Position numbers and translations under genes: made by a program. This document shows positions 22,897-64,000 of a DNA stretch of 64,000 bases, piece after piece. Below the pieces are notes generated by a model. That model ran no database searches and had not been told where the DNA came from. It saw only the letters and a list, made by a program, of their open reading frames with translations. How positions within the stretch are numbered: position 1 is the stretch's first letter; each line of letters opens with the position of its first letter. This DNA is from a virus, in IMG/VR virus record IMGVR_UViG_3300030328_002122, positions 62,366 through 126,365 of that record; one strand, 5' to 3'.

Positions 22897-25776
22897 ATGG
22901 GAAAAGCAAGGAATAGAGCTGAACGTACTGGAAGTATGGATGTTGTCATTGGTACTACTAAGTTAGTAACTAATTCTGGTGATATAGAAGTAAAAGATAC
23001 CAGTAATAATAGAAAGAAAATTATTGCGTCAGAAATCAAACTTGGTACTGGTAATGATATTGTTATTATTAAAAGAAATTCAAGTACAGGACAAGCTCAA
23101 TTTCAATCATCATCTGATGGTGGAAGTAGTACAAGTGAACAAACTGTGGGCGGTGCTAGTACTGTAACTAATGCATCTGATTTGCCTATTACTGGAAATC
23201 AAGCTGGTGATTTGAAACTTGTTACTTCAACCAATAATTTGATGATTCACAATGGTACTGGTTGGTATAAAATAGCAACAATTACAAACGCATCACCTAC
23301 GATATCTTCTGCTGGAAGTGCTGCATATAATTTTGCAACAAATGGAACAGCAGTTTCTATAGAAATTGTTGCAACAGATCCAGAGGGTGCTGCTTTACAA
23401 TATAAGTATCAAGTCACAACTGGATCATTAGGTTCAACTGCAGCTGTAACAAATAGTGCAACATCTGGTGGTACTTACTCTGCGCTTGCAGCTAATACTT
23501 ATAGTAATAATAGATTCTTTAAAGTTACGCCTAGTACAAATACTGCTCATGCTGGTACATTTGCAATCACATTTTCTGTAACTGATGGTATCAATACTGC
23601 GAACTCTAGTGCATCTTCATTTACTTTGGCATTTGAAACTTTTGGATCTACTGCTTTGGATTTAAACGCAGGCCCTACTTCGGCTGGTGATGCTCATTTA
23701 GAAGTTGCAGCCCATTCTGATTTTACTTTAGGTACTAATAATTTTACAATTGAGGGTTGGTTTTTTTCTCAAGGGCCTGCTCCATCACAGGATTATCCAT
23801 CTGCTAGGGTGGGATATAGAAACTCTGTTGGATATTCTCCTCACCTTTTTGATTTTAGAAACGTAAGTGGGAATAATAAAAGAGCGCCTATGGTATGGAT
23901 AGGTGGAACTGGTGGAAACAACGCTCAAGCGGGTAATTTAACATTTCGATATCATGTTACTGGCTCTGATCGTATTACAAGCTCCCGCCAGTTTCCAGAA
24001 ATAGAAAATCAATGGTTTCATTTTGCTATCGTCAGAAATTCTTCAACAACAACTATGTATATTAATGGTACATCTGAAGGTACATGGTCGGACAGTACAA
24101 ATTATGATGAAATAGATAAGTTGTGGATAGGTAGAAAACATACTAATGGAAGTCATAACTTTACTGGATGGGTTTCAAATTTTAGAATAGTTAATGGTAC
24201 TGCTGTATATACTGCTAACTTTACGCCTCCAACTGCACCTCTTACTGCCATTGCAAATACAAAGTTATTAATTTGTACAAAAAATAATGCAGTAGACGAT
24301 ATAGGCCCTACTGGTCATACAGTAACAAAATCTGGTACTGCTACTCATTCTACTTTTAATCCATACCCTTGGGCTACTACTGGTTGGGGTTCAGTATTTT
24401 TCGATAAAAACAATGATAGGATTAAATATATAAAAGGTGGTGGAAATGCAGTAACAGGTATGACCGCTCTTACAGACCTTACAGTAGAAGCTTGGGTCTA
24501 TCATTTTGCTGGACATAGTGATGATAGTACAGATCCAACTACTGAAGAAATATATGTGCATTTTACTGATAACCTTTCTAGTGGTGTACAAATGTCATTT
24601 GGTAGAAAAAGAACTGAAAGTACTACTTGTCCAATATTTACTAGTACGTCTGGTCATCCTTATCAAAATCAAGTTTATACAGCTAACGCAGCCCATGATG
24701 TAAATCGTGGTGGGTGGTATCATGTTGCTTTTGTAAAAGATGGTACTAACCTAAGAATGTATAAAAATGGCACTAATGTAGCTGGGAATAATCAAACTTC
24801 TGCTACTAATCTTCCTTCATCATTTAGAGTAGGTGAAATTTATATTGGTGCAGATTCTGGTAATGGTTATGATATGTTAGGATATATGTCTAATCTTAGA
24901 ATTTCTAATAGTGCAAGATATAGTGCCGATTTTACTCCATCAACAACACCACTTACTAGTGATTCAAATACAGTATTGTTGACTTGTCAAAGGGCTGCAC
25001 CACAAAAGCTTACAAATGGAGCAACAACTTTTAGTGGAACTAATACTAAATTAACTACAGCGGCTAGTAGTGACTTCACACTTGGAACTGGAGATTTTAC
25101 AGCAGAAGGTTGGTTTAATTGGCCTTCTCTCCCAGGCAGTGGAAAGTATATTGTCGATATTGGTAGTAATGGTTGTGTTTTGCAATTTCAAAGTAATACT
25201 CAAATAGGTTTTTGGAATGGTACTGATGGTTATGTACAAGGATCATATACTTTTGTAGTCGATACTTGGTATCATATTGCTTGGACAAGAGCATCTGGAA
25301 CAGGAAAATGTTATGTTAATGGCACTCAAGTAGTTTCTGGTACTTTAAATAAAGATGTAACTACTAATACATTAACAATGAATGGTTATGGTGGTGGTGG
25401 ATCTTATGGTCAAGGTGGGGTAAAATGGAGTGATTTCAGACTTGTAAAAGGTAAAGCAGTTTATACTGGTGCGTTTTCACCGCCTACTGGCCCATTAACA
25501 AAAACTGGTGGAACTTATCCTAATAGTACAAACCGAAGTGATCCTTCAGCTTCACAAACTGTACTTTTAACTCATCAAGCATCATCTGGATCAACTGCAA
25601 CAGATAATAGCGATAGTGGTCATACAATCTCAAATGGTGCTGCTTTTGGTGGTAGTATATCATTAGGTGCTGGAAATCAAAATATTGCAACAGATCAAGG
25701 TGCAAATAGTTTAGGTCTAGTAGTAGAAGGTGATGTACGTAATGCTAGATATTGGCCATTTACTTATAATGGATAA
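22897..25776 (+). CDS. LamG-repeat tail fibre-like protein 1
   Basis: 959 residues. A short N-terminal segment (GKARNRAERTGSMDVVIGTT) is shared with the two following proteins. A cadherin/Ig-like domain lies at about 130-250 (QYKYQVTTGSLGSTAAV). Three concanavalin A-like LamG_3 domains follow (about 250-460, 490-690, 700-890). Each has FTxEGWF-type strands, a YINGT turn and ends in F-R-I-V-x-G-x-A-V-Y-T-x-x-F. Such domains bind sugars, which suggests a receptor-binding or fibre role. It starts directly after the previous stop. Confidence 0.82.
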   Translation: MGKARNRAERTGSMDVVIGTTKLVTNSGDIEVKDTSNNRKKIIASEIKLGTGNDIVIIKRNSSTGQAQFQSSSDGGSSTSEQTVGGASTVTNASDLPITGNQAGDLKLVTSTNNLMIHNGTGWYKIATITNASPTISSAGSAAYNFATNGTAVSIEIVATDPEGAALQYKYQVTTGSLGSTAAVTNSATSGGTYSALAANTYSNNRFFKVTPSTNTAHAGTFAITFSVTDGINTANSSASSFTLAFETFGSTALDLNAGPTSAGDAHLEVAAHSDFTLGTNNFTIEGWFFSQGPAPSQDYPSARVGYRNSVGYSPHLFDFRNVSGNNKRAPMVWIGGTGGNNAQAGNLTFRYHVTGSDRITSSRQFPEIENQWFHFAIVRNSSTTTMYINGTSEGTWSDSTNYDEIDKLWIGRKHTNGSHNFTGWVSNFRIVNGTAVYTANFTPPTAPLTAIANTKLLICTKNNAVDDIGPTGHTVTKSGTATHSTFNPYPWATTGWGSVFFDKNNDRIKYIKGGGNAVTGMTALTDLTVEAWVYHFAGHSDDSTDPTTEEIYVHFTDNLSSGVQMSFGRKRTESTTCPIFTSTSGHPYQNQVYTANAAHDVNRGGWYHVAFVKDGTNLRMYKNGTNVAGNNQTSATNLPSSFRVGEIYIGADSGNGYDMLGYMSNLRISNSARYSADFTPSTTPLTSDSNTVLLTCQRAAPQKLTNGATTFSGTNTKLTTAASSDFTLGTGDFTAEGWFNWPSLPGSGKYIVDIGSNGCVLQFQSNTQIGFWNGTDGYVQGSYTFVVDTWYHIAWTRASGTGKCYVNGTQVVSGTLNKDVTTNTLTMNGYGGGGSYGQGGVKWSDFRLVKGKAVYTGAFSPPTGPLTKTGGTYPNSTNRSDPSASQTVLLTHQASSGSTATDNSDSGHTISNGAAFGGSISLGAGNQNIATDQGANSLGLVVEGDVRNARYWPFTYNG

Positions 25777-25808
25777 TTCATTCTAAAAATTCTAAAGGAA
25801 CACGATAA

Positions 25809-28800
25809 ATGAGTATAGCAAGAGATAGAGCAAATAGAAGTGGATCAGATCCTTTACAGATTGATAATACAAAATTAGTTACAGATTCTGGTGATTTAAA
25901 GGTTCAAGATGTAAGTGGTAATGAAAAAAAACTTATAGCATCAGAAATTCATGTAGGAACTGGTGCAGATAAAGTCATATTAAAGAGAGATTCCTCTACA
26001 GGTAAAGTTGCAATTCAGACACAAGCATCTGGAGAAGCTGCAGAAGGTGGTACTGTTGCAAGTACAACTGTTTATGCAACTACAGCTCTTTTACCAACAA
26101 ATCCAACTGATGGTCAACAAGCTCTAGTTACTGCAAATAATTTCATGTTTATTGCAAAATCTAATGGATGGTATAAAATAGCAGAAATTACTAATACTGC
26201 TCCTACTATTTCGTCAGCTGGTAATGCATCTTATCAGTTTTTAACTGATGGAACTCCAGTTTCTATAGAAATTACTGCTACAGACTCAGAAGTTGGTAGT
26301 GCGTTACAGTACAAATATGTAGTAAGTTCTGGATCAATAGGTTCAACTGCAGCTATTACTTCAAGTGCAACATCTGGTGGAACTTATAGTGCATTAGCCG
26401 CCAATACATTGACTACAAACAAATTTTTTAAAGTGACGCCCAGTACAACTGATGCTCACGCTGGTACTTTTAGTTTAACCTTCTCAGCATCTGATGGTGT
26501 TGCAGTTGCAACTTCTAGTGCATCTGAATTTACTTTACAGTTTGATGTGCCTGGATCATATAAAGTTGGGCCTTATAATGCTGATACAGACTATTATAGT
26601 TTTCCTGCTAGTTCAGATTTTAATTTTGGATCAAATAATTTTACTATAGAAGCATGGGTATGGCCTGATGGAGCTGCAGCTGATAAAAGAGGATCTTGGA
26701 TAGAATGGGGGCCAGATGATAGTAATAATGTATTAAGAATATTTCAAGGATCTTCAACACAAAGTGCTTCTAATACAGATAATGATTTAGAAGCAATATA
26801 TATAGTGGGTGGAACAGATAAATTTGAAATTGTTGCTCAAGATGGACTAAAACCAAATGCTTGGAATCATATTGCTCTACAAAGAGTAAGTAATACCATA
26901 CATCTTTTTGTTGATGGTAGTGAAGTAGGTTCTGCTTCTTATAGTGGTACAGTTGATCTTTCATCATGGGTTGGATATCTTGGTATGGATAAGTATGGTA
27001 CTGATAGAACAGCAACTGGTTATATATCAAATGTTAGAGTTGTAAATGGAAGTTCGGCTTATAGTGTAACTGCAGCTCCTCATAGTGGATCAATTCTTCT
27101 TAGTGGTGGTGCTGTTACTACAAGTACAAGTACTGATTTTACAATGGGTACAGGAGATTGGACAATAGAATTATGGTTCAAATATGGAAGTTCTAGTTTA
27201 TCTGGAAATAATTATCTTCTTGACTTAGGTTCTAATGGTTTAAGATTTACTTTTACCAGTGGCTCTATTTTCGCCACATTAAATCATGGAGCTGGAGATA
27301 CTATTGACTATGATATGGTAGATGATTTAGGTAGTTTAGATACAAGTAAATGGTATCATCTAGCTTTTACTAGAAGTGGTACAACCCTTAAACTTTATTT
27401 GGACGGCGTACTAAAAGGTACTGATACTGGTATCAGTAGTAATCACGCAACTAATACTTTTACACTTGGTGGTTATGGTGGTGGTGGTTATAATTGGCAA
27501 GGTGGTGTATGTGATCTTAGAATTGTAAAAGGTAAAGCAGTTTATACAGGCGCTTTTACACCACCAAGTGGCCCACTTACAAAAACTGGTGGAACTTATC
27601 CTAGTAATGTTAATATAAGTAATCCTTCTGCAAGTCAAACAATTATGTTACTTGGTAATAATGCAAGTAGTGTTACAGATACAAGTGATACTCCTCATAC
27701 CATGAGTCATGGTGGTTCAGTTTCTGCTAGTTCAGCCGTACCAATTGCAGCCAGTATAACTAAACCAACATCTGGTTTAACTGCTGTAACAAATACAAAA
27801 CTTTTAACTATGAAAGGGGCAGAACCATCAAAAGTAACAAATGGTGGAACAACTCTTGCATCTCAAGGTAGTAGTGAATTGAATGTAACATCTACTCATA
27901 TCCCTGCTTGGGGTACTACTTGGACATTAGAAACATGGGCTTATTTTACTTCTGGTGGTTCTTATAGAAATATATTTCATGGCGGCGCTGTTGGTAGTGC
28001 TTGGTATATGGCAAGAGTTGGTGCAGCTATTCAACCATATAATATGGGTTTTAATTACTCCAATATGGGATCAACAAGTGTAAATCAATGGCATCATATT
28101 GCTGCGACTTGTAATAATGGTAGTTTTGTTTTATATATTGACGGCGTTTCAGCTGGTACTGCGACAGCAAGTGCCAGTGGTACTAACCCACTAGGTGTTG
28201 GTAGTAGTCAAGATATACGTTTGTTTACTAATAGTGTCGATAGTCAAGACATGACAGGAACATTATCCGACTCAAGAGTTGTCGTTGGAACTTGTGTATA
28301 TACAGGCGCTTTTACACCACCAAGTGGCCCACTTACAAGAACTGGTGGAACTTATCCTAGTAATACAAATGTAAATACAAGTATTCCTTCAGCTCATACT
28401 TATTTGTTAACAAATCAAACTTCTTCTGGATTAGTAACAGACAATTCTCAATACAATGCGACTATGTATCAACTTGGTGTAACTACAGGTGCTGGATATG
28501 AGAAATTACTAGATGTAAATTCACAAGTAACAGCAAAAGTTTTAACTAAATATGGTGATGCCAAACATGATTATGCTACTCCATTTGCACAAGGTTCTGG
28601 TGGATCGGCATTTTTTGGAACTTATCTTGGCGCCAATAATGCTAATATTGGTACTCTTATTCCAACTGCAAATAGTGATTTCACTTTGGGTACTGGTGAT
28701 TATTGTGTAGATGGTTGGTTTAAAAATACATTTCCTGTAAATACAGGTATCACTCACAATGAAAGACTTTTTGATATTGGTAATAATGGTTGTAGAATAT

Positions 28801-29960
28801 TTTTTAAAAATGGACTAATAAAAGCACAAACTGATCAAAGTGTTCAAATGACTTACACACCTGGCACTACTGACGCTGTCTTTCCTACAAATGAATGGCA
28901 TCATTATGCTCTACAAAGATCAAGTGGTACTACAAAATTTTTTCTTGATGGTAAAGAAAAGACTAGTATTTCTGATACTGCAAATCACACATCTAATACT
29001 TGTAAGATTGGTGGTTATGGTGCTGATGATACTAATGATAAGAAATTTCTTGGTTATATGTCTGATTTTAGAATTGTTAAGGGTGCAACTGCTCATACTG
29101 TAACATCTGCGGCCTCATATGGGGGCGGTTCTATTACTTTTGATGGAACTGGTGACTATGTAACTGGTGTGGTAACAGCAGCAGGAACTAGTGATTTTAC
29201 TTTAGAATGTTGGTTCAATTTTGATGCTACAGGACATAAAGGTATTATGCATATAGGAAATAATGCATGGAGTGGTTCTAATAGTGCTGGTATTGGTATG
29301 GCAATAAAACCATCAATAAGTGGTTATCAAATATATGCAAATGATACTTACACAAATACTAGTAATCAAGGTGTTATACCAGCTACTGGCAGTTGGCATC
29401 ATGGTGCTATGGTCAGAATAGGTCAAACTACAAGATTATATATTGATGGTATAGAAACTATATCTGTAGCAGATCCTAAAAATTATACATCAACACACAT
29501 TATGATTGGTGGATTTTATAGTACATCTCAAGTAATGGATGGAAAAATTTCAGACGTAAGATATGTTGTCGGAACAGGAGTTTATAGTGGCAACTTTTCC
29601 CCACCAGCTGGAAGATTGACATTAACTGGTGGAACTTATTTGGATACAACAAATGTCAATACATCAATACCTTCTGGTCATACTAAACTTTTAACTGCAA
29701 ATGAAGCAACTGGAGCTCCAAATGATGATAGTGCATCAAGTGTATCTTTAACTGCTAATGGTGATGCAGCTGCAAATGCCGCAACACCTTTTGTTGATAC
29801 AATACCATTACCAACATCAAAATCTACTGCAATAACAGGTACAGTATTATTAACTTGTCAACAAAGTACAGGCGATTTTACTGATGCAAGTTCAAGTAAT
29901 CATACAATATCGCAAGGTGCTACTGGTACAGTATTAGCAAAAAGACACCAACCATATTAG
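25809..29960 (+). CDS. LamG-repeat tail fibre-like protein 2
   Basis: 1383 residues, paralogue of the protein before it. It has the same N-terminal module (ARDRANRSGSDPLQIDNTKL) and Ig-like domain, then five LamG domains at about 250-425, 430-610, 675-855, 930-1095 and 1105-1275. Domain ends carry FTPPSGPLTKTGGTYP-type linkers. Some linkers are nearly identical at DNA level (for example near 27541 and 28300). It has its own ribosome binding site (AAAGGA). Probably a trimeric adhesin that recognises cell-surface glycans (inference). Confidence 0.82.
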   Translation: MSIARDRANRSGSDPLQIDNTKLVTDSGDLKVQDVSGNEKKLIASEIHVGTGADKVILKRDSSTGKVAIQTQASGEAAEGGTVASTTVYATTALLPTNPTDGQQALVTANNFMFIAKSNGWYKIAEITNTAPTISSAGNASYQFLTDGTPVSIEITATDSEVGSALQYKYVVSSGSIGSTAAITSSATSGGTYSALAANTLTTNKFFKVTPSTTDAHAGTFSLTFSASDGVAVATSSASEFTLQFDVPGSYKVGPYNADTDYYSFPASSDFNFGSNNFTIEAWVWPDGAAADKRGSWIEWGPDDSNNVLRIFQGSSTQSASNTDNDLEAIYIVGGTDKFEIVAQDGLKPNAWNHIALQRVSNTIHLFVDGSEVGSASYSGTVDLSSWVGYLGMDKYGTDRTATGYISNVRVVNGSSAYSVTAAPHSGSILLSGGAVTTSTSTDFTMGTGDWTIELWFKYGSSSLSGNNYLLDLGSNGLRFTFTSGSIFATLNHGAGDTIDYDMVDDLGSLDTSKWYHLAFTRSGTTLKLYLDGVLKGTDTGISSNHATNTFTLGGYGGGGYNWQGGVCDLRIVKGKAVYTGAFTPPSGPLTKTGGTYPSNVNISNPSASQTIMLLGNNASSVTDTSDTPHTMSHGGSVSASSAVPIAASITKPTSGLTAVTNTKLLTMKGAEPSKVTNGGTTLASQGSSELNVTSTHIPAWGTTWTLETWAYFTSGGSYRNIFHGGAVGSAWYMARVGAAIQPYNMGFNYSNMGSTSVNQWHHIAATCNNGSFVLYIDGVSAGTATASASGTNPLGVGSSQDIRLFTNSVDSQDMTGTLSDSRVVVGTCVYTGAFTPPSGPLTRTGGTYPSNTNVNTSIPSAHTYLLTNQTSSGLVTDNSQYNATMYQLGVTTGAGYEKLLDVNSQVTAKVLTKYGDAKHDYATPFAQGSGGSAFFGTYLGANNANIGTLIPTANSDFTLGTGDYCVDGWFKNTFPVNTGITHNERLFDIGNNGCRIFFKNGLIKAQTDQSVQMTYTPGTTDAVFPTNEWHHYALQRSSGTTKFFLDGKEKTSISDTANHTSNTCKIGGYGADDTNDKKFLGYMSDFRIVKGATAHTVTSAASYGGGSITFDGTGDYVTGVVTAAGTSDFTLECWFNFDATGHKGIMHIGNNAWSGSNSAGIGMAIKPSISGYQIYANDTYTNTSNQGVIPATGSWHHGAMVRIGQTTRLYIDGIETISVADPKNYTSTHIMIGGFYSTSQVMDGKISDVRYVVGTGVYSGNFSPPAGRLTLTGGTYLDTTNVNTSIPSGHTKLLTANEATGAPNDDSASSVSLTANGDAAANAATPFVDTIPLPTSKSTAITGTVLLTCQQSTGDFTDASSSNHTISQGATGTVLAKRHQPY

Positions 29961-29965
29961 GATAG

Positions 29966-29973
29966 TATAAATA
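29966..29973 (+). promoter_or_regulatory. T4-late-like promoter octamer
   Basis: Perfect TATAAATA between fibre genes 2 and 3, 18 bases before the ATG at 29991, with an AAAAGGA ribosome binding site in between. No -35 box is evident, as expected for a T4 late promoter. Confidence 0.6.
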
Positions 29974-29990
29974 CTTAAAAAGGAATAACT

Positions 29991-32900
29991 ATGGGAAAAT
30001 CAAGAGATAGAGCTAATCGTTCTGGAAGTGATCCAGTAAATATCGGCACAACAAGGTTGGCTGTTGATTCTGGTAATGTAAAAGTCACTGCTCAAGATGG
30101 TACAACATTTAAAAAGATTTTTGCAGAAGAAGTGCAAGTAGGGGTTGGTAATAATAGAGTTATACTTAAAAGAGGTTCAGATGGAAAAGCTGAGTTTCAA
30201 TCTACAGCTGATGGTGGTGGTTCAACAACAAATTTAACAGTAGGTGGTTCTAGTACTGTAACTAATCCTTCCGATTTACCCATTACTGGAAATCAAGCTG
30301 GTGATACAATATTGGTAACATCAAATAATAATTTGATGATCTACAATGGTTCTGGTTGGTACAAAATAGCTACCATAACTAATGCAACACCTACAATATC
30401 ATCAGCTGGAAATGCGAGTTATACTTTTGCTACAGATGGTACTCCAGTAAGTATCGAAATTACAGCATCTGATCCAGAGGGTGTTGCATTACAATATAAG
30501 TATCAAGTCACAACTGGTTCTCTTGGAAGTACAGCTGCTGTAACAAATAGTGCAACATCTGGTGGAACTTATAGTGCATTAGCCGCCAATACCTATAGTA
30601 ATAATAGATTTTTTAAAGTGACGCCCAGCACAAATAGTGCTCATGCTGGTGCATTCGCAATCACATTTTCTGTAACTGATGGTGTTAATACTGCTAATTC
30701 AAGTGCATCTTCATTTACTTTGGCATTTGAGGTTTCTGGTTCATTGAGATTTGATGGTACTGGAGATTATATAACTGTTCCAAGTTCTACTAATCTCCAA
30801 TTAGGATCATCAAACTTTACAGTAGAATTTTGGTTGTATTTACCTGTAGCAATTGCTAGTAATTATCAAATTTATATTGGAAAAGGGCATAATGCTGATA
30901 GCAGTAGAGAATGGTATTTAGAGGGTATGTCTGATGGAAAAATTGATTTATTTTGGTCAACTAATGGCGGTGGTTGGAGTAGTGCTGAAGTAACTGGAGT
31001 TTTACCTATAAGGACATGGCATCATATCGTTATGCAAAGAACAGGAAGTACTTTAAAGGTATATACAAACGGCAACGAATCATATGTTAATAGTTCTTTT
31101 CCAACTATTCATTCGGGCAGTCAAATATTAAACATTGGCGGGTTCAATGATGGAAGTGGACTATATTCAAATAGTTTTATGTCAAATGTAAGACTTATAA
31201 AAGGTTCTAATGCTTATACTACAACTGGTGGATCTATTAATCTTACTCCATCAAATGCAAATGTTTCTCTTGCCACAGATGCTGATTATTTGATAGGTAG
31301 TAGTGAAGATTTTACAATTGAAGCTTGGGTTTATACACCTTCAAGTTTTGCATTAAATAATGCTAAGTGGAGAACAGTTTATTTTTGTGGTACTAATGGT
31401 GCATTACAAATTGCATATGATACAGCTGGAAAACCTGTTTTTTATTCTGGAGGCAATATTATTCTTGCTACTACTGCTTCAACGGCATCAACTTGGGAAC
31501 ATATAGCTTTTACTAGAACTGGTTCTTCTATGGTATTTTATCGAAATGGTGTCGCTGATGGTACAGCTACAAATAATGCAGCACATGGTGCAAATACTAA
31601 TGCACATTATATTGGTGCTTATAGTGGAACTGAAGGTGGTCTTGGTGGTTATATATCTAATTTTAGATTTGTTGTAGGTACAGGTGTATATACTGGTGCT
31701 TTTACTCCACCTCATGCTTTAACAACTAGTGGTGGAACTTATGCTTCTACTGCAAACGTAAATACATCATTTACAGCTTCACATACTATGATATTAACTG
31801 GACAAAGTTCATCTTCAGTAACAGACGCAAGCCAGAAAAATGAAACTTTAACACTAGGAAGCAGTGCAGCTGCAGCTGCAAATAGTCCATTTATTACAGT
31901 ACCAACTGAACCAATAAGTGCTATATCAAATACTATGTTATTAGTAGGAACTGAAAAAGAATCAGTTGCTGTTACAGATGGTGCATATAGTTTTGATGCA
32001 GTTACATCAAGATTAAAAACTCCAGATTCTTCAAGTGGTGCTTATAATCTTCCTGCTGATACACCAATGACACTTGAAATGTGGTATTATATGAGAGCCA
32101 CTCCAGCTAATTCTGTATATCTTTGGTCATTACACGATTATCAAGTTCATATGACTTATTATAGTAGTTATAGTAGTCACAATCAACCTCATATGCAACT
32201 TTATCTTGGTAAAGGTGGTTCTACTAGATTGTATGGTAATGGAAATACAGGCACTTCTCTTAATACTTGGTATCATGTTGCTGTAACTAGAAATTCGAGC
32301 AATGTTTGGAATATGTATATTGATGGCGTAAAACAAACACTTGGTGCTGGTGGTGGAGCTGGTGGTTCACAAATAACTAATAATAGTGGTTGGACAGGAG
32401 CATCTGAAGCTGCAAGAATAGGAATAAATTGTTATCCAGTAGTTTCTAGTGCTTCTTGGGCTGTAAATTCTGGTATGAATGGAGCTCTTTCAGATATAAG
32501 ATGGGTCGTAGGAACTTGTGTTTATTCTGATAGTTTTACTCCACCTTCAGGCCCATTAACAAAAACTGGTGGAACTTATCCATCAAATACAAATATCAAT
32601 ACATCTATAACATCTTCTCACACTAAAATGTTAACTGCACAGAGTAGTGGTGTTGCTGGTGGTTTAGAATTTACTGGTAGTGGTGAAACTACTACTGCAA
32701 GTCATGCTGGTTTTGATTTTGGATCTAATGATTTTACTGTAGAATTTTGGTACAAATGGAAAGATAATAGTGGGTATCAAACTCTCATAGATCAATATTA
32801 TCATGTGGGGGCTCGTCATTTTTTACTTCAAGCTAATACTAGTACAACTAAATGGGGAGTATTTATAAATCAGACTCATATTGGAAGTGCTTATGAATCA

Positions 32901-34115
32901 TCAGATGCTACTATAGGTATATGGCATCATTATGCTATAGTAAGAAATGGTAGTGCGTTTAAGATGTATAGAGATGGCGTAGAAACTATATCTGCTACTG
33001 TTTCTGGATCATTAAGTGGAACAGAAGTTACAAAATTTAATCATGCATCACATACCACTTCTGGATCAGTTAGTAATTTACGAGTGGTAAAGGGTACAGC
33101 TGTGTACACAAGTGCTGGTTTTACATTACCAACTGGTAATTTAACTGCAATAAGTGGAACATCTTTATTGTTATTCCAAGAAAATAGTGGAACAACATTA
33201 GATGATGGTAGTACAAATAATGTTACTATAACAAAACATAGTGGTCATAATATTATAACTGGTGGTGGCCCATATTATTGGAAAGATAATAGTGATAGTG
33301 GTTTTAGATTATCTGCATCTGGTGCTGGAAATGCTACTAAAACAACTGGTGTAACATACCCTTCAAAAGATATAAGCACACAAAATAATTCATTATCTTT
33401 TAAAGGAGATACATCACACAGCTTTGCAACTCCATTTAGTGATGGTGGTGGTGGATCTACATTGTTTTGTGCTACTCAGACACTTGGCGGTAATCATTCG
33501 GGGCATTATGCTGATGCTCCAGATAGTGCCCAATTTAGTATGGGTACTGGTGATTTTACTATTGAGGGTTGGGTATATCCTTATGATCAACAACATAATC
33601 GAGGATTTTGGGCTTTAAGTACTACTGCTGCTGACAGTTGGAATTGGAATAGTGGAAATTCATTAGGATTTTTAAGAGGGTATGGTGATAGTGGAAATTT
33701 AGGGTTTTATGGTATTGGCAACGAACATAACTTAACTACTACTGTTAATCCAGCGATTAATACTTGGTTTCATTTTGCCTTTGTTAGAATTTCTAACACT
33801 TTAAAGATCTATATTGATGGTGTTGAAAAGCATTCTGCAACTGATAACACTAATTATACAGGTGATGGTATAAAAATTGGTGGTCTTGGTGGTGTCGGTG
33901 GTGTAGCACATTTTAATATGTCTAATTTCAGAATTGTTAAGGGAACTGGTGTCTATACAAGTGCTTTTAGTGTACCAACTTCACCATTAACTGCTATAAC
34001 AAACACAGTTTTATTAACTTGTAATGACAGTAATAAAGTTGATGATGCAAGTACATCTGGTCATGTTATCACTACTTATAATGATGTGATTGCAACAAGA
34101 TTTCATCCATTCTAA
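29991..34115 (+). CDS. LamG-repeat tail fibre-like protein 3
   Basis: 1374 residues, third paralogue. N-terminal module GKSRDRANRSGSDPVNIGTT, Ig-like domain at about 130-250, then five LamG domains at about 250-410, 415-590, 650-845, 880-1050 and 1150-1345. Its Ig-like domain DNA is almost the same as parts of both other copies (for example 30490-30600 against 23399-23500 and 26369-26410). The short stretch before each LamG domain varies most. Preceded by its own late promoter. Confidence 0.82.
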   Translation: MGKSRDRANRSGSDPVNIGTTRLAVDSGNVKVTAQDGTTFKKIFAEEVQVGVGNNRVILKRGSDGKAEFQSTADGGGSTTNLTVGGSSTVTNPSDLPITGNQAGDTILVTSNNNLMIYNGSGWYKIATITNATPTISSAGNASYTFATDGTPVSIEITASDPEGVALQYKYQVTTGSLGSTAAVTNSATSGGTYSALAANTYSNNRFFKVTPSTNSAHAGAFAITFSVTDGVNTANSSASSFTLAFEVSGSLRFDGTGDYITVPSSTNLQLGSSNFTVEFWLYLPVAIASNYQIYIGKGHNADSSREWYLEGMSDGKIDLFWSTNGGGWSSAEVTGVLPIRTWHHIVMQRTGSTLKVYTNGNESYVNSSFPTIHSGSQILNIGGFNDGSGLYSNSFMSNVRLIKGSNAYTTTGGSINLTPSNANVSLATDADYLIGSSEDFTIEAWVYTPSSFALNNAKWRTVYFCGTNGALQIAYDTAGKPVFYSGGNIILATTASTASTWEHIAFTRTGSSMVFYRNGVADGTATNNAAHGANTNAHYIGAYSGTEGGLGGYISNFRFVVGTGVYTGAFTPPHALTTSGGTYASTANVNTSFTASHTMILTGQSSSSVTDASQKNETLTLGSSAAAAANSPFITVPTEPISAISNTMLLVGTEKESVAVTDGAYSFDAVTSRLKTPDSSSGAYNLPADTPMTLEMWYYMRATPANSVYLWSLHDYQVHMTYYSSYSSHNQPHMQLYLGKGGSTRLYGNGNTGTSLNTWYHVAVTRNSSNVWNMYIDGVKQTLGAGGGAGGSQITNNSGWTGASEAARIGINCYPVVSSASWAVNSGMNGALSDIRWVVGTCVYSDSFTPPSGPLTKTGGTYPSNTNINTSITSSHTKMLTAQSSGVAGGLEFTGSGETTTASHAGFDFGSNDFTVEFWYKWKDNSGYQTLIDQYYHVGARHFLLQANTSTTKWGVFINQTHIGSAYESSDATIGIWHHYAIVRNGSAFKMYRDGVETISATVSGSLSGTEVTKFNHASHTTSGSVSNLRVVKGTAVYTSAGFTLPTGNLTAISGTSLLLFQENSGTTLDDGSTNNVTITKHSGHNIITGGGPYYWKDNSDSGFRLSASGAGNATKTTGVTYPSKDISTQNNSLSFKGDTSHSFATPFSDGGGGSTLFCATQTLGGNHSGHYADAPDSAQFSMGTGDFTIEGWVYPYDQQHNRGFWALSTTAADSWNWNSGNSLGFLRGYGDSGNLGFYGIGNEHNLTTTVNPAINTWFHFAFVRISNTLKIYIDGVEKHSATDNTNYTGDGIKIGGLGGVGGVAHFNMSNFRIVKGTGVYTSAFSVPTSPLTAITNTVLLTCNDSNKVDDASTSGHVITTYNDVIATRFHPF

Positions 34116-46569: not shown

Positions 46570-47586
46570 ATGAAACTGTTTAAAATCTTATCAGTACTAT
46601 TATTATCATTAAGTGTATCATCTGCATTTGCAGATAAATTAAAAGTTGGATTTATATATGTTGGGCCAGTTGGAGATCATGGTTGGACTTATATGCATGA
46701 TCAAGGTCGATTAATGGCCGAAAAACATTTTGGTGACGATATAACAACCACATTTGTAGAATCTGTACCAGAAGGGCCTGATGCAGAAAGAGTTATGACT
46801 CAGATGGCTTTACAAGGACATGATATTATATTTGCAACATCATTTGGTTATATGGAACAAATGTTAAATGTTGCTAAAAAATTCCCTAACATAAAATTTG
46901 AACACGCAACTGGATATAAAACTGCTGACAATATGTCAGTATATTCTTCTAAGTTTTATGAAGGAAGATATGTTCAAGGTGTTATCGCTGGACATATGAG
47001 TAAAGAAGGAAAAGCAGGATATATTGCATCATTCCCTATTCCAGAAGTTATTCGTGGTATCAATGCATTTTGGTTAGGTGCTACTTCTGTTAATCCAGAT
47101 TTTGACATAGATGTTGTGTGGGTTAATACTTGGTATGATCCTGCTAAAGAAGGTGATGCAGCCAGAGTACTAATCAATCAAGGTGCTGATATTATAACTC
47201 AACATACTGATTCAACTGCACCACTATCAGTTGCAGAAGAGATGGGTATTAAGGGTTTCGGTCAAGCATCTGATATGATTCACTTTGCACCTAATACACA
47301 ATTAACTTCCATCATAGATCAATGGGGCCCTTATTATATTAAGAGAATACAGGCTGCGTTAGATGGTACTTGGGAATCTTCTGATACTTGGGGTGGTATG
47401 GATACTGGAATGGTTGAAATGGCTCCAATGACTAATATGCCTGATAATATTGCTAAGATTGCAGTAAAAGTTGCAAATCAAATAAATGATGGTAAACTAG
47501 ATCCATTTGGTGGAGAGTTTACTGTAGGTGAACTATTAGGAATGTCTAAGTATCTTTCTGGTATAGATGCACCAAATCCTAATTAA
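46570..47586 (+). CDS. BMP-family periplasmic solute-binding protein (PnrA-like)
   Basis: 338 residues. A Sec signal peptide (MKLFKILSVLLLSLSVSSAF, cleavage after A-F-A) precedes a full type I periplasmic binding fold: KVGFIYVGPVGDHGWTYMHD, IIFATSFGYMEQM, YVQGVIAGHMSKEGKAGYIA, GADIITQHTDSTAP. This is the Bmp/PnrA family (PF02608), whose members bind purine nucleosides or related compounds and deliver them to an ABC transporter. No permease or ATPase is seen here, so it would work with a host transporter (inference). Its RBS (AAAGGTAG) is nearly the same as that of the next gene. Very likely taken from a host. Confidence 0.9.
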   Translation: MKLFKILSVLLLSLSVSSAFADKLKVGFIYVGPVGDHGWTYMHDQGRLMAEKHFGDDITTTFVESVPEGPDAERVMTQMALQGHDIIFATSFGYMEQMLNVAKKFPNIKFEHATGYKTADNMSVYSSKFYEGRYVQGVIAGHMSKEGKAGYIASFPIPEVIRGINAFWLGATSVNPDFDIDVVWVNTWYDPAKEGDAARVLINQGADIITQHTDSTAPLSVAEEMGIKGFGQASDMIHFAPNTQLTSIIDQWGPYYIKRIQAALDGTWESSDTWGGMDTGMVEMAPMTNMPDNIAKIAVKVANQINDGKLDPFGGEFTVGELLGMSKYLSGIDAPNPN

Positions 47587-55194: not shown

Positions 55195-55507
55195 TATCTA
55201 TAGTGTAAATGCACAACCCACTACTGGTTGGGTAATGAAACCAACTCAATGTGGTAATGCAGATGTTGTTATAGAAGGTCTGAAATCAGCAGGAGAAGAT
55301 CCTTTTGTTTGGATGAATGGTCGTTCTATGAGTGTAGAAGGTATATTTCTAGATACCAGATTTGTTTTAGCTATGAACACAAAAACACTTGATTGGACTC
55401 TTTTAGAGTTTACTAGAGATAATAAATTTGCGTGTGTACTAGGATCTGGTAATGGAACAATTAATATGAATACAGAAATAAATAAGAAAAAAGGTGTTGA
55501 CTTATAA
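55151..55507 (+). CDS. Small secreted protein of unknown function
   Basis: 118 residues. A clear Sec signal peptide (MQKIILIITFLLTLNIYSVN, cleavage after N-A) starts within the exonuclease gene. The mature part has TTGWVMKPTQCGNADVVIEG and WTLLEFTRDNKFACVLGSG, with two cysteines that could form a disulfide. A periplasmic protein made by the phage; the role is unknown. It lies directly before the tmRNA promoter. Confidence 0.7.
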   Translation: MQKIILIITFLLTLNIYSVNAQPTTGWVMKPTQCGNADVVIEGLKSAGEDPFVWMNGRSMSVEGIFLDTRFVLAMNTKTLDWTLLEFTRDNKFACVLGSGNGTINMNTEINKKKGVDL

Positions 55508-55527
55508 TATTCTATATGTTATAAATA
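55497..55527 (+). promoter_or_regulatory. Promoter of tmRNA, sigma70-type with late-like octamer
   Basis: TTGACT (55497-55502), 17 bp, TATAAA (55520-55525), which is also part of a perfect TATAAATA (55520-55527). The predicted RNA start is about 55532. Confidence 0.7.
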
Positions 55528-55531
55528 AGGT

Positions 55532-55925
55532 ACAGTTTGTTGATACGAATTGATGTTTGGATAGGACTTGGGGGCAGTACCCAACGCCTCCACCATAGAC
55601 ACACTAGGTTTTGGTATATCAATTGATATATAACCATACCTTTGTACACAATGGTTAACATCATCTGATCGGAAGGTAGGATCAGCTAGTGTGTCTTTGA
55701 TGGGGGCGAAATAGGATCGACTAACAAATGAATATGAGAGTAGAACTGTCGCATGACCTCGTTATCGGTCAAAACAAATAAGTGCAAACAATAATTTTGC
55801 GCCTGTAGATTTCGCCATAGCGGCTTAATCGTACTGAGTTTTGGTGGTGTACTTGGAAACAGAAACACCACTACATGAATAGGGTCACTACTTAATAGGT
55901 GCGTGTGGAGTCATGGTTAACTCCA
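55532..55925 (+). ncRNA. ssrA: tmRNA (ssrA), circularly permuted two-piece form
   Basis: The acceptor piece comes first and ends CGCCTCC-A-CCA at 55585-55595, preceded by a T arm (TTGGG 55568-55572, CCCAA 55580-55584). The coding piece starts GGGGGCG at 55702 and pairs with the acceptor end in a 7-bp stem whose third pair is G-U, the alanine identity element. The tag frame (55784-55825, stop TAA at 55826) reads A-N-N-N-F-A-P-V-D-F-A-I-A-A, ending in AA as proteolysis tags do. The order acceptor then coding is the alphaproteobacterial arrangement. The outer ends (55532, 55925) are approximate. It would rescue stalled ribosomes and tag proteins. Confidence 0.93.
55597..55696 (+). repeat. Inverted repeat closing the tmRNA intervening segment
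   Basis: AGACACACTAG (55597-55607) and its perfect complement (55686-55696) bracket the spacer that separates the acceptor and coding pieces (55596-55701). The stem would extend the acceptor helix of the precursor and is probably removed during maturation. Confidence 0.85.
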
Positions 55926-57197: not shown

Positions 57198-57938
57198 ATG
57201 GTGACCAAAATACAAGGAATAAATAACTTGACACCAAACGCAAAATTAGTGTCGTATTCGACACCAACTAAAAATTTTTCAGAGGAAGGATTGAAAGATG
57301 TACAAGATCTCATTTCGTACTGTGCTCGTGTTTCCAATCCATCAAACCAATTTAACAAAGCGACAGCGCAAAAACTTATCATATATCTCATTAAACACAA
57401 ACACTGGTCGCCATTGGAGATGGCTAGCGCTTGCATAGAGATAGAAACTACAAGAGATATCGCACACCAAATTGTAAGACATAGAAGTTTTTCATTTCAA
57501 GAGTTTAGTCAAAGATATGCAAATCCAGATGAGATGGGTGATGCATTTACTATACGTGAGTGTAGATTACAAGACAGTACTAATAGACAAAATTCTATAG
57601 AAATAGAAAATGATCCATCATTACAATTGGATCAATCAAGACAAGAACTTATAACCGAATGGCAACGCAGACAACATGGTATTATTAACCAATCTAAAGA
57701 AGTTTATGATTGGGCTATAAAAAATGGTATTGCAAAAGAACAAGCTCGTGTAGTATTACCAGAGGGTTTAACTAAGAGTAGAATACTTATGAATGGAACA
57801 CTAAGATCATGGGTACATTATATAGAGTTAAGAACTGCAAAGGGTACACAGAAAGAACATATGCAAATTGCAGAAGGTTGTGCAATTGAAATTTCAAAAA
57901 TATTTCCAATGATGGAGAATTTAAATGGAAAGAGATGA
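57198..57938 (+). CDS. thyX: Flavin-dependent thymidylate synthase ThyX
   Basis: 246 residues. The ThyX motif RHRSFSFQEFSQRY lies at 94-107, followed by YANPDEMG. KNGIAKEQARVVLPEGLTKS and LRSWVHYIELRT complete the active site. It converts dUMP to dTMP using methylenetetrahydrofolate and FAD/NADPH. Typical of T4-like marine phages in place of T4 Td. Overlaps the next gene by 14 bp. Confidence 0.95.
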   Translation: MVTKIQGINNLTPNAKLVSYSTPTKNFSEEGLKDVQDLISYCARVSNPSNQFNKATAQKLIIYLIKHKHWSPLEMASACIEIETTRDIAHQIVRHRSFSFQEFSQRYANPDEMGDAFTIRECRLQDSTNRQNSIEIENDPSLQLDQSRQELITEWQRRQHGIINQSKEVYDWAIKNGIAKEQARVVLPEGLTKSRILMNGTLRSWVHYIELRTAKGTQKEHMQIAEGCAIEISKIFPMMENLNGKR

Positions 57939-60039: not shown

Positions 60040-61914
60040 TTAAATAGGAAATGCAAAATTAGGTATAGTATTATCTCTAACAGGCCAAGGAACAACTCCA
60101 CCACCAGAACCACCACCACTTACATTATTATTATTTACAACACTATTATTAGTGATTATTGATCCACCACCACCAGTTCTTTTTTCTTCTGCAAGTTCAC
60201 TATTTGCAGTTGCAACTGCACTACCTAATAGTGTTTTTAACTCTGTAGTTAATTGTTCAACAAGTTTTGCATCTTGATTTCTTCCTTTATAATCAAGGCC
60301 TCTGTAAACATTTTCACCAGACTCTGATCTTGCAATTCTATCTTTTGCTTCTTGTATCTCTGTTTGAACTTGAACTCTTTTTTGTTCATCAGTTGGTGTT
60401 TTTACTAATTCCTCTAATTCAACATCAGCTGGTTCTTGAACTGTTTCTTCAACTGGTGTGTCATTTTTCAGAAATGGTATATACCCCTCTAAAAAGTCTG
60501 GTATAACTGCTCTTGCAATATCTTTAACATTTATATCAAATAAACCACCAAAGAAATCTGTAACTTTTTTTACTGTCTTTTCAAACAATTCACTTATGTT
60601 TGGAAGTTCTGGTAGTTTTAAGTTGGTTAATACATCTCTTACATCTTTAAATGGGTCAAATGTGGTTAGAAAAGTTCGTAAACTACCAAAGATATCTAGG
60701 TTTGCAAAGAACTCTCTGATATCACCAAAAAGATCTAGGTTTGCAAAGAACTCTCTAATACTACCAAAAAGATTTAAGTTTGCAAAGAAACCTCTTATAT
60801 CTTCAATTTTCTGACCTACTGTATCTGGTATAGAAGTAAAAAATCCTACAAGGTCATCATATATACCAGTTATTCTTTCAATAAATGCATCTGATGGAGT
60901 AAATGCAGCTATGGCTGCAGTAAACATATTACTAATAAAATCACTTACATTTTGCAAAAATCCATTGATAAGATCCTCAAAAGAAAAACTATCAAGTTTT
61001 GCAGCTATTTCTTCAAATCCAAGTTTTGTCAAGAGCCAAGATGTTAGATCTTTTAACAAATCAAGTGGAAGTCCTATGATAGTAGAATAAAATTCTATAC
61101 TAGCTTGTTTTATCGCTTCCATAATACTGCCAGTTTCTCTCCAAGTATCCATGAAACTCTTAAATGCATCATACAATCCTTTTGCAGTTACCAAAATTCC
61201 TGCTACTATTGCAACGATAACTGCACCTGTAGCAGCTGCACCTAATCCTATGACTCCACCAATTGCAGTTAGACCAGCAGCGATTGCAGTAAAAGCCCCA
61301 CCAAGACTTGTTACGATACCAACTATTTTAACTATCGCCCAACCACCTAAAACTGCACTTAATGTTGTCATTTGAGCAGTATGATCAGTAAATAAAGTTT
61401 TTAATTCTTCCCATGATGGTGAAGTGATAAAGCCTAATATTGCAGGCCAAAAAGGATGCAAAACAAATTTTTTCACACCTTCTACAATCGCAAGTGCTTT
61501 TTCTGTTATTTTAGGCCATTCCTCACTATCCATAAATGATAGTAATCCAATCAGAGCAGCACCAAACAAGAATTTTTTTGCAAGATTCCAAATACCACCA
61601 GCTGCTTTCTTTGCAGAATCTAATGCATTTTTTTCTATAATACCAGTTAGAGTACCTACACCCTTTGTAACACCAAAAATACCTTTTTTTATAACTTTAA
61701 ATATTGACAGTTGTTCTCTTTTATCTTCTGTTTCTTTTGCATCAGTTTTGTTTTTATCTTGTAGTTCAACACCTTGTGCTTGGGCCATTTGATTTTGAGT
61801 ATCAGATATATTTTCTAATACTTTCAAAAGTCCTTCTTGACCTTTATTATTTGCTTGTTGTTCTGAAACTAAGGTTTTGAAATCTTTAGCGCCACCAAAA
61901 CTTACTTCTACCAT
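60040..61914 (-). CDS. Tail tape-measure-like protein
   Basis: 624 residues on the minus strand. An N-terminal coiled coil (about 1-75) is followed by long hydrophobic Ala/Gly-rich segments (AALIGLLSFM, GGAFTAIAAGLTAIGGVIGL, AATGAVIVAIVAGILVTA), typical of tape-measure proteins. Three near-repeats of 13 residues (FFANLNLFGSIRE, FFANLDLFGDIRE, FFANLDIFGSLRT) occur at about 371-413. The C-terminus is polar with a Gly/Asn-rich stretch. Its place after gp26 with a frameshift signal supports the role. T4 gp29 has 590 residues, so the size fits. Confidence 0.7.
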   Translation of the reverse strand: MVEVSFGGAKDFKTLVSEQQANNKGQEGLLKVLENISDTQNQMAQAQGVELQDKNKTDAKETEDKREQLSIFKVIKKGIFGVTKGVGTLTGIIEKNALDSAKKAAGGIWNLAKKFLFGAALIGLLSFMDSEEWPKITEKALAIVEGVKKFVLHPFWPAILGFITSPSWEELKTLFTDHTAQMTTLSAVLGGWAIVKIVGIVTSLGGAFTAIAAGLTAIGGVIGLGAAATGAVIVAIVAGILVTAKGLYDAFKSFMDTWRETGSIMEAIKQASIEFYSTIIGLPLDLLKDLTSWLLTKLGFEEIAAKLDSFSFEDLINGFLQNVSDFISNMFTAAIAAFTPSDAFIERITGIYDDLVGFFTSIPDTVGQKIEDIRGFFANLNLFGSIREFFANLDLFGDIREFFANLDIFGSLRTFLTTFDPFKDVRDVLTNLKLPELPNISELFEKTVKKVTDFFGGLFDINVKDIARAVIPDFLEGYIPFLKNDTPVEETVQEPADVELEELVKTPTDEQKRVQVQTEIQEAKDRIARSESGENVYRGLDYKGRNQDAKLVEQLTTELKTLLGSAVATANSELAEEKRTGGGGSIITNNSVVNNNNVSGGGSGGGVVPWPVRDNTIPNFAFPI

Positions 61915-61923
61915 TTTTCTGTC

Positions 61924-62250
61924 CTACTTTTTCGCAAAGGTTTCTTTTGCATAGAAAGCTGCAACTATAGCTGCAACTGATACAAAGTATGTTGGAGCCA
62001 TATCACCTAATATACCACTTGCTTTATCTAATCCAATCCACTCTGCAAGAACTACTGAAAAAGGATATAATAACATACCAAACAATGCAAACCATGCCAT
62101 GTTGCGTTGTGCATCGGCCTTCTTATCTTCATTCTCTAATCTCATCATTTCTTTACTCATTGCAATTTCCTCATCGCTTACTATCCCATCTCCATCCACA
62201 TCAAAATCTGCATATTGTGAACCTTTTTCTAATTTCTTTTGTGCAGCCAT
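61924..62250 (-). CDS. EF-hand membrane protein
   Basis: 108 residues from ATG 62250 (minus strand), with GAGAGGAAAG upstream. A canonical calcium EF-hand loop DVDGDGIVSDEE sits at about 16-27, followed by a charged helix and two membrane segments (MAWFALFGMLLYPFSVVLAEW and TYFVSVAAIVAAFYA). Similar proteins exist in marine T4-like phages beside tail genes. Perhaps calcium-dependent in membrane contact (inference). Confidence 0.7.
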   Translation of the reverse strand: MAAQKKLEKGSQYADFDVDGDGIVSDEEIAMSKEMMRLENEDKKADAQRNMAWFALFGMLLYPFSVVLAEWIGLDKASGILGDMAPTYFVSVAAIVAAFYAKETFAKK

Positions 62251-62303: not shown

Positions 62304-62426
62304 CTAACAGTTACATTTACTACACTCGCAACCTGTACAAACATCATTTGCACATTGTTCACATTCTTTTTCACAATGACAATCATGTCCACACTTTTTA
62401 CATTTTCCGTTACAAGTACAACTCAT
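62304..62426 (-). CDS. Cys-rich metallothionein-like peptide
   Basis: 40 residues, 13 cysteines and two histidines, in a minus-strand ORF with a strong ribosome binding site (AAGGAGAG, six bases before ATG). It reads MSCTCNGKCKKCGHDCHCEK followed by ECEQCANDVCTGCECSKCNC. CxC and CxxC clusters throughout suit binding of several metal ions. No membrane or signal sequence. Lies between gp26/gp51-like and the EF-hand gene, in the late tail operon. Confidence 0.78.
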   Translation of the reverse strand: MSCTCNGKCKKCGHDCHCEKECEQCANDVCTGCECSKCNC

Positions 62427-62445
62427 AGTGCTCTCCTTGTTCTAT

Positions 62446-62643
62446 TTATCCTTTTCCATCTGCTTTAGCTTGTCTTTCAGCGGTTTTTTCATCATCTAAC
62501 CATTGAAGAAGAAGTTTTGTGTATATTTCCCTCTCCCAAGGCATCATATATTCTAGTTCTGTTAAAGAATACTTATGATGTTGCATAAGTTGGAAATTTA
62601 ATTGATAATAGTTTTCCAACGTATTATGAGAGAGGGATACTAG
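62446..62643 (-). CDS. gp51: gp51-like -1 frame extension of gp26
   Basis: 65 codons open in the -1 frame relative to gp26, from the slippery site to TAA at 62446-62448. No start with a ribosome binding site is visible. The product reads NYYQLNFQLMQHHKYSLTEL, EYMMPWEREIYTKLLLQWL and a charged tail, resembling small baseplate-hub assembly proteins (gp51) or tail chaperone extensions that follow gp26 in T4-like phages. Expressed as a gp26 fusion of about 299 residues if the shift occurs. Independent initiation at an internal ATG (62586) is possible but lacks support. Confidence 0.65.
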   Translation of the reverse strand, partial: LVSLSHNTLENYYQLNFQLMQHHKYSLTELEYMMPWEREIYTKLLLQWLDDEKTAERQAKADGKG

Positions 62644-63344
62644 AAAAAATCTTGTAGTCCTTCTAATGTTAAATCACTTTCAACTTCAGTTTTAGGATTC
62701 TTCACAGTAATCTTATGTTTCACTTTAGGCATTGTTTCAAAAAAACTTTGCACTTTCACAAATTGTTCATGTGACATTGATTCAATAAAATCATCTAATT
62801 CTTTTTCTTCCATGTCGTTTTTAGTATAAACATTCTCTGCATCATATATTTGATTAACACAGCTTTTAATAACATTAAAAGTTGCAACTGCATCATTCTT
62901 TCCATCTGTAATTTTTACAACTTTGCTTATTTCTGGATAATCAAATACTATCCCTACATCATCACTAATTTTTATATTATTAGTATGATCTTTGTCTTTA
63001 ATACATTGTACTTCAGATAGATTTACATCTACTTTTACTTTTGTTTCTTCATCATCTGGACAAATTACTGTAACAGCAGTTGTTTCTCCAATAGACTTAC
63101 ATCTAATCTGTAAAAATACATATTCTATATCAAATGTTGGTAATTTTTTTGAATCTAATTTACCAAACGTACACGCATCAATAAGATCCTGTACTGCACG
63201 TATTAAAGATTGTTGACTTCCTTCTTGTTGTGCTAACATTAACATTTTTTCTTCTTTCACAAGAAAGGGTCTAAACTCTACTTTTTGTCCTGTAGAGGGT
63301 AATGTCAATTCATATTTAGCGGTTGCTAACTTTGGTAACGCCAT
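62640..63344 (-). CDS. gp26: Baseplate hub / tail assembly protein gp26 family
   Basis: 234 residues. The N-terminus KYELTLPSTGQKVEFRPFLV, then KEEKMLMLAQQEG and LDACTFGKL-like segment IDACTFGKLDSKKLPTFDIE, is the T4_baseplate (gp26) signature. A later part, FDYPEISKV and ESMSHEQFVKVQSFFETMP, completes the family pattern. In T4 it belongs to the hub assembly pathway; in other phages the equivalent position is taken by frameshifted tail chaperones. The stop is preceded by a slippery heptamer. Confidence 0.88.
   Translation of the reverse strand: MALPKLATAKYELTLPSTGQKVEFRPFLVKEEKMLMLAQQEGSQQSLIRAVQDLIDACTFGKLDSKKLPTFDIEYVFLQIRCKSIGETTAVTVICPDDEETKVKVDVNLSEVQCIKDKDHTNNIKISDDVGIVFDYPEISKVVKITDGKNDAVATFNVIKSCVNQIYDAENVYTKNDMEEKELDDFIESMSHEQFVKVQSFFETMPKVKHKITVKNPKTEVESDLTLEGLQDFF
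62643..62649 (-). promoter_or_regulatory. -1 ribosomal frameshift site
   Basis: On the minus strand the heptamer T-TTT-TTC is in frame with gp26 and is followed at once by its TAG stop. The X-XXY-YYZ pattern is canonical. A Shine-Dalgarno-like GAAGGA (62658-62663) lies 8 nt upstream, in the range known to stimulate -1 shifts in dnaX. Confidence 0.65.
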
Positions 63345-63369: not shown

Positions 63370-64000
63370 TTATCTTGCACCAGTACCGATTACTGATGTT
63401 AGGGTTTGTCCACCAGAAACAGTTTTGGGTGGATTTTGAGTTGCAAATGTTCTGGTATCACTATTATCCATTACTTGTCCATTTGCATCTATAAAAACAA
63501 AATCTCTGAAAACAAAAGAAACCTCTTGTCTTGCAATGTCCATATTTTGAGCGCTAAACTCTACTGCACCAACTGTTTTTGGAAAACATTCATTCAATCT
63601 AAGACCAGCTAATGGTAAACCATTTTTTCCTAATTGGAAAACTTCTATTGGTGTTACATACTGATTATAATATTCTAGATTGTAATTATTTGGTTTAACA
63701 ACAAGATCTTGCCACTTTAAGAAATACTGTCTTTCAAAATGTTCTGCTGATAAAAAGAATGTCATACTTATATCTTCTGCATATGTCAATCCCTGAGCCA
63801 TTTCATAAGTTGGGCCATATACTGTTTCGTTTGTAACAGTTCTTATATTTTTACCAGGCATGGTGAACGCTTCAACTCTAAAAGATACGTGTCTATCTGC
63901 GTCTGGATCTCTTATTGCTGGTGGTGATGTTATTTTTACTTCAAATCTATTTGCAAGTGCATGACCACCATACTTACTAAAACTTGCAATGAACTCATCT
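63370..64000 (-). CDS. Tail-tube family protein (gp19/gp54-like), 5' end outside window
   Basis: About 209 codons in the window; the frame stays open to the edge (FIASFSKYGGHALANRFEVK is upstream of the first visible ATG at 63861), so the true start lies beyond. FTMPGKNIRTVTNETVYGP, QGLTYAEDISMTFFLS and LRLNECFPKTVGAVEFS are typical of T4-like tail-tube gp19 and tube-initiator gp54 relatives. First gene of the leftward tail module in view. Which of gp19 or gp54 cannot be settled here. Confidence 0.8.
   Translation of the reverse strand, partial: DEFIASFSKYGGHALANRFEVKITSPPAIRDPDADRHVSFRVEAFTMPGKNIRTVTNETVYGPTYEMAQGLTYAEDISMTFFLSAEHFERQYFLKWQDLVVKPNNYNLEYYNQYVTPIEVFQLGKNGLPLAGLRLNECFPKTVGAVEFSAQNMDIARQEVSFVFRDFVFIDANGQVMDNSDTRTFATQNPPKTVSGGQTLTSVIGTGAR

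Follow-up and report, generated by a model that had tools for sequence, protein, structure and literature searches.

Bacterial metallothioneins of the SmtA/BmtA/PmtA type are small, Cys-rich proteins with CxC and CxxC motifs and some His ligands, and metallothioneins lack secondary structure. No paper on phage or viral metallothioneins was found in the open-access literature searched. Counterparts in named phages of the peptide gene described here come from Pelagibacter phages: AGE60383.1 of HTVC008M (MNCDNCGHPSHCGTPLMKTNEGSEYEVCKHCRCEECTPKE; profile E 1.5e-4) and QOI69074.1 of Mosig EXVC030M (MEYCKNCGHECHCGSACKQEVTNEFGEKYEIECCKQCRCDTPVNK; tblastn E of only 0.8), both hypothetical proteins for which the searched literature yielded no description as metal-binding, and an unannotated ORF of HTVC023P (29.0-29.2 kb; profile match at E 7e-7). 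Judged by core motif and position, the first two appear to be divergent members of a single peptide family. They share with it C-x2-C-G-H-x-[SC]-H-C and a C-terminal CxxCxC but, unlike the peptide studied here, have only 7-9 Cys and a longer loop, and lack the Asn-Asp. The HTVC023P ORF has the same core and differs from our peptide in its longer N-terminus and its length of 54 aa.

The DNA analysed (the window) is a stretch of 64,000 nt within a virus record of 145,194 bp. The original prediction placed in it a metallothionein-like peptide of 40 residues with 13 Cys, encoded behind a strong ribosome binding site in a late tail operon. Length and Cys count are as predicted, the ORF (MSCTCNGKCKKCGHDCHCEKECEQCANDVCTGCECSKCNC) being on the minus strand, which had not been specified, and the ribosome binding site is the AAGGAG sequence listed in Table 1, present upstream of the 13-Cys form in 9/9 distinct DNA sequences. 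Cys makes up 32.5% of the peptide, Cys and His together account for 15 of its residues, and F, W and Y are absent.

Table 1. Cys-rich peptide gene, its signals and its neighbours (window positions)
Feature	Position	Strand	Properties or best match
Tail tube protein, runs off window	63370..63999	(-)	phrog_45, E 1e-35
gp26-like baseplate hub protein	62640..63344	(-)	PF12322, E 6e-67
gp51-like baseplate hub assembly catalyst, upstream neighbour	62446..62619	(-)	phrog_634, E 2.8e-23
GATAAATA late-promoter-like box	62443..62450	(-)	16 nt before peptide ATG
Shine-Dalgarno AAGGAG	62433..62438	(-)	6 nt before peptide ATG
Cys-rich peptide gene	62304..62426	(-)	40 aa, 13 Cys, 2 His
Holin-like protein, downstream neighbour	61924..62250	(-)	EF-hand-like Asp loop and membrane segments
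Tape-measure-like protein	60040..61914	(-)	PHROG tail length tape measure families, best E 7e-8

The predicted position in a late tail operon agrees with the same-strand tail-gene neighbours, which on the minus strand run in the order tail tube, gp26, gp51, peptide, holin-like and tape-measure-like. Closest named relatives in the tail region are Methylophilales phage Melnitz, which also carries the nearest named relative of the gp26-like protein (60%), and Pelagibacter phage HTVC008M, both of the Kyanoviridae. The downstream neighbour may be a holin, as suggested by relatives adjoining lysozyme/endolysin genes in other phages. TATAAAT was used as the T4-like late promoter sequence in the annotation of Melnitz (PMC9004378), and the box upstream of the peptide gene differs at one position from the T4-type late promoter TATAAATA. 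The latter occurs six times in all within the first 20 kb of the record and lies ≤60 nt upstream of five genes, gp25 included, against 0.1 expected upstream of genes. The GATAAATA box is kept in near kin, a conservation that is not fully independent because the box overlaps the gp51 stop codon. Taken with the late-operon position and the ribosome binding site, it suggests that the peptide would be produced late in infection.

Elsewhere in the window, ARAGORN places a tmRNA gene at 55503-55919 (tag ANNNFAPVDFAIAA), and a ThyX-like thymidylate synthase with a RHRSFSFQEFSQRY motif was recognised by eye at 57198-57938. The ORF at 46570-47586 has a signal-peptide-like start and by eye resembles a periplasmic basic-membrane-protein/substrate-binding lipoprotein, an unusual product for a phage. 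Three large tandem paralogues at 22897-34115 with common N-termini and LamG-like repeats (by eye) are likely to be adhesins or tail fibres.

A short ORF of this kind could have arisen by chance, and the HTVC023P homologue, from a named phage, carries no annotation. When the window was shuffled 100 times by a first-order Markov model, the Cys share of any ORF of 30-80 aa reached at most 23%, and the C-terminal Cys pattern of the peptide was matched in none. Among the nine non-identical DNA sequences that encode the 13-Cys form, pN/pS is 0.22 and 13/13 Cys codons are invariant as Cys, many of them differing synonymously. Unconserved Cys in relatives or a frame broken in close strains had been named as grounds for rejecting the gene; near kin keep all 13 Cys, and none of the 10 occupied slots has a disrupted frame. 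These slots come from 84 loci in which gp51 is followed by the holin-like gene (loci rather than independent genomes, some being overlapping views of one contig), where an intact peptide ORF was found in 10, all near kin, within an interval of 144-145 nt. In the other 74, HTVC008M and Melnitz among them, the gap is empty (0-25 nt), with no decayed copies of the peptide gene seen. The gene behaves as a discrete late-gene cassette, gained or lost whole. We consider a chance origin to be practically eliminated, refuted as it already is by conservation, purifying selection, the ribosome binding site and the depth of the family. The peptide is thereby confirmed as the product of a real gene under purifying selection, the conservation being decisive.

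Three scans of viral sequences, using Cys only, the N-terminal half or the C-terminal half of the pattern, all converge on one large family of at least 222 places and at least 174 distinct peptides. The two half-pattern scans each returned at least ~120 stretches, prevalence being a lower bound; the expectation that such viral peptides are very rare does not hold for this CxxCxHxCHC family. The family pattern is C-x2-C-x-[HC]-x-[CSH]-H-C-x3/4-C-x2-C-x-(ND[VI])-C-x2-C(-x-C), with usually 7-13 Cys per member, and the window peptide fits its core (C-x2-C-x-[HC]-x-[CSH]-H-C...C-x2-C...C-x2-C). At least 87 distinct ORFs from the C-terminal-half scan keep C-x2-C and H-C, a few differing at one position, and the C-terminal ND[VI]C-x2-C-x-C recurs among the matches listed from the N-terminal-half scan. 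Since fixing either half recovers the other half conserved, the half-pattern scans are independent where it matters. In a 70-row alignment C9, C12, H17, C18, C22, C25, C30 and C33 are invariant and C35 is present in >90% of rows; beyond this core, the window peptide has Cys at 3, 5, 16, 38 and 40, as well as His14. Members are mostly 30-60 aa long, with aromatic residues in the tails of several other branches, and a Shine-Dalgarno match of ≥4 bases precedes 74% of members; for this set the search expression itself partly dictates such percentages, which should not be taken as unbiased. Pattern matches in genome contigs, among those listed, were rejected as chance hits or low-complexity frames (HCCHCC).

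The family, found mostly in uncultured viruses, is apparently marine, a label that rests on the named relatives. Searching most members by tblastn against named phages gave nothing useful except HTVC023P and Mosig, perhaps as a consequence of the low-complexity filter, and by profile P-SSM2, S-PM2 and Syn9 are without a homologue. Nor was a homologue found in any of 951 bacterial genomes (385 + 292 + 274, from two proteobacterial classes and the cyanobacterial phylum), a negative that carries weight for the sampled groups because the same profile recovers 11/11 held-out viral members. No family match was obtained in Pfam, PHROGs or NCBIfam (PHROGs: 0/70 members at E ≤ 0.01). This large family of small, predicted metal-binding phage peptides is apparently uncatalogued; its absence from PHROGs and Pfam, and the unannotated or hypothetical status of its members, are probably due to their short length. 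A different type of Cys-rich small phage peptide, CNNPxCxCDPCECT, was seen at related loci (L158:2147-2260 and L161:7614-7727), the latter copy without a PHROG or Pfam match.

How far does the likeness to metallothioneins extend? In being small, with 20-35% Cys, CxC/CxxC motifs and few or no aromatic residues, the window peptide has the composition of that class. It shares size, Cys richness, motifs and some His ligands with the SmtA/BmtA/PmtA type, whereas the phage peptides differ in Cys spacing and occur in phages, not in the bacterial genomes surveyed. Searches of Pfam (E ≤ 10) and NCBIfam (E ≤ 1) gave no match to a metallothionein profile. The term "metallothionein-like" is apt for the size and composition of a real, conserved gene product, but not as a statement of membership in the known metallothionein families. 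AlphaFold predicts no secondary structure for the window peptide (pLDDT 70.5; 64.4 for a longer family member), in models built without metals, and Foldseek returned no fold match.

Family genes are typically embedded in same-strand gene runs (both neighbours on the same strand in 139/161, with median gaps of 9 and -1 nt), and these runs are of several kinds. The window's branch has the order gp51, peptide, holin-like. In another arrangement the peptide stands between PAAR and gp25, both neighbours being found for 13/174 distinct peptides among the matches listed, and three 13-Cys peptides in this setting are 85-88% identical to the window peptide. As peptides from the two arrangements are up to 88% identical, the gene has moved between late slots. 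HTVC008M and Mosig have the order peptide, small ORFs, PAAR, gp25. At least ~25 members lie in cassettes of Hsp20, a small holin-like membrane protein, peptide and lysozyme or GH108 endolysin, more than 20 each lie beside phrog_727, phrog_3704 (labelled ferredoxin) or phrog_3577, and four have a pseudoazurin-like gene (PF00127) within 1.5 kb. One such pseudoazurin/plastocyanin-like copper protein gene, on a phage contig (L288:2179-2652), adjoins a family member. The window's own phage has two tandem PAAR genes (L620:19-693) followed by a nuclease-like gene and gp25. Here PAAR and gp25 are separated by the nuclease-like gene and not by the peptide, which lies near 124.7 kb, at the opposite end of the record from gp25 and the PAAR genes (0.1-0.5 kb).

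A cytoplasmic peptide that combines His with thiolates clustered as CxC/CxxC binds Zn(II), and an invariant His favours Zn over Cu(I). The invariant His of the family core supports a zinc-based reading, and we tentatively suggest, at slightly short of even chances, that the product is a late cytoplasmic Zn(II)-thiolate peptide that stores or donates zinc during assembly. Expressed from the late tail operon, it would hold about two zinc ions in its Cys7His core (C9, C12, H17, C18, C22, C25, C30, C33), while the 15 potential ligands of the window version could suffice for about four in a metallothionein-style cluster. The stored zinc would be kept or handed on while zinc-containing virion parts are built, the leading candidate client being the zinc-tipped PAAR spike. 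We infer metal binding, the identity of the metal, the donor role and the client alike. Zinc is held by His and Cys in PAAR tips, which require it to function (PMC10715212), and in the PAAR proteins adjoining family peptides several conserved positions are occupied by His and Cys. A PAAR client is supported by the relatives near PAAR and gp25, the HTVC008M and Mosig homologues included; it is weakened by the many relatives that adjoin lysis or unknown-function genes instead, and by the separation of the PAAR genes from the peptide in the window's phage.

The zinc store is itself weakened by the widely varying Cys number across homologues, and by the conserved Asn-Asp and fixed core spacing, which are more suggestive of a defined fold than of a loose buffer. 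Nearly as likely, in our estimation, is that the peptide is a structural, zinc-knuckle-like mini-domain that carries two zincs and has nucleic acid, or a protein of the host or phage, as its binding partner; the window's branch would have elaborated on it with additional Cys. Its C-x2-C-x4-H-x4-C spacing is that of a CCHC zinc knuckle in most members, as in retroviral nucleocapsid proteins, with C9, C12, H17 and C22 invariant in the alignment; the eight invariant ligands are exactly enough for two four-ligand sites, N-D-[VI] is conserved, and the tails are variable, some with a membrane-spanning C-terminus (e.g. member L324). However, a residue inserted before C22 in some members breaks the knuckle spacing, the phage peptides have many extra Cys, and the weak PDB profile matches to retroviral nucleocapsid knuckles are not significant (E 0.4 to 4). 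The Pfam zinc knuckle zf-CCHC_3 is touched by only 1/70 members (E 7.8), and the AlphaFold models, of low confidence in both peptides, leave metals out and do not tell the two zinc readings apart.

Sequestration of Cu(I) or Cd(II), or metal tolerance, would be consistent with the CxC motifs and with the four members near a pseudoazurin-like copper protein gene, but appears improbable in view of the invariant His, the scarcity of copper contexts and the fact that no copper or cadmium resistance genes were recognised among recurrent neighbours. We give even less credence to a role in lysis or oxidative stress as a thiol redox buffer or disulfide-bonded peptide. Many relatives do lie in the Hsp20, holin-like, peptide and endolysin cassettes, yet the window peptide lacks a signal peptide, the cytoplasm is reducing, and such a role leaves the conservation of His and Asn-Asp unexplained.

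Surface seawater is poor in zinc. It is conceivable, if rather unlikely, that these viral peptides are dedicated to storing or chaperoning zinc for the loading of PAAR tips and other virion zinc proteins in a zinc-poor ocean. Should this be true, the family would represent the first widespread viral metallothioneins. A Cys-rich family so widespread in late cassettes would mean that viruses manage the supply of metal for building their virions or acquire host metal when the cell lyses, and trace metals would become a trait to be measured in viruses; the homologues in cultured Pelagibacter phages make the family testable.
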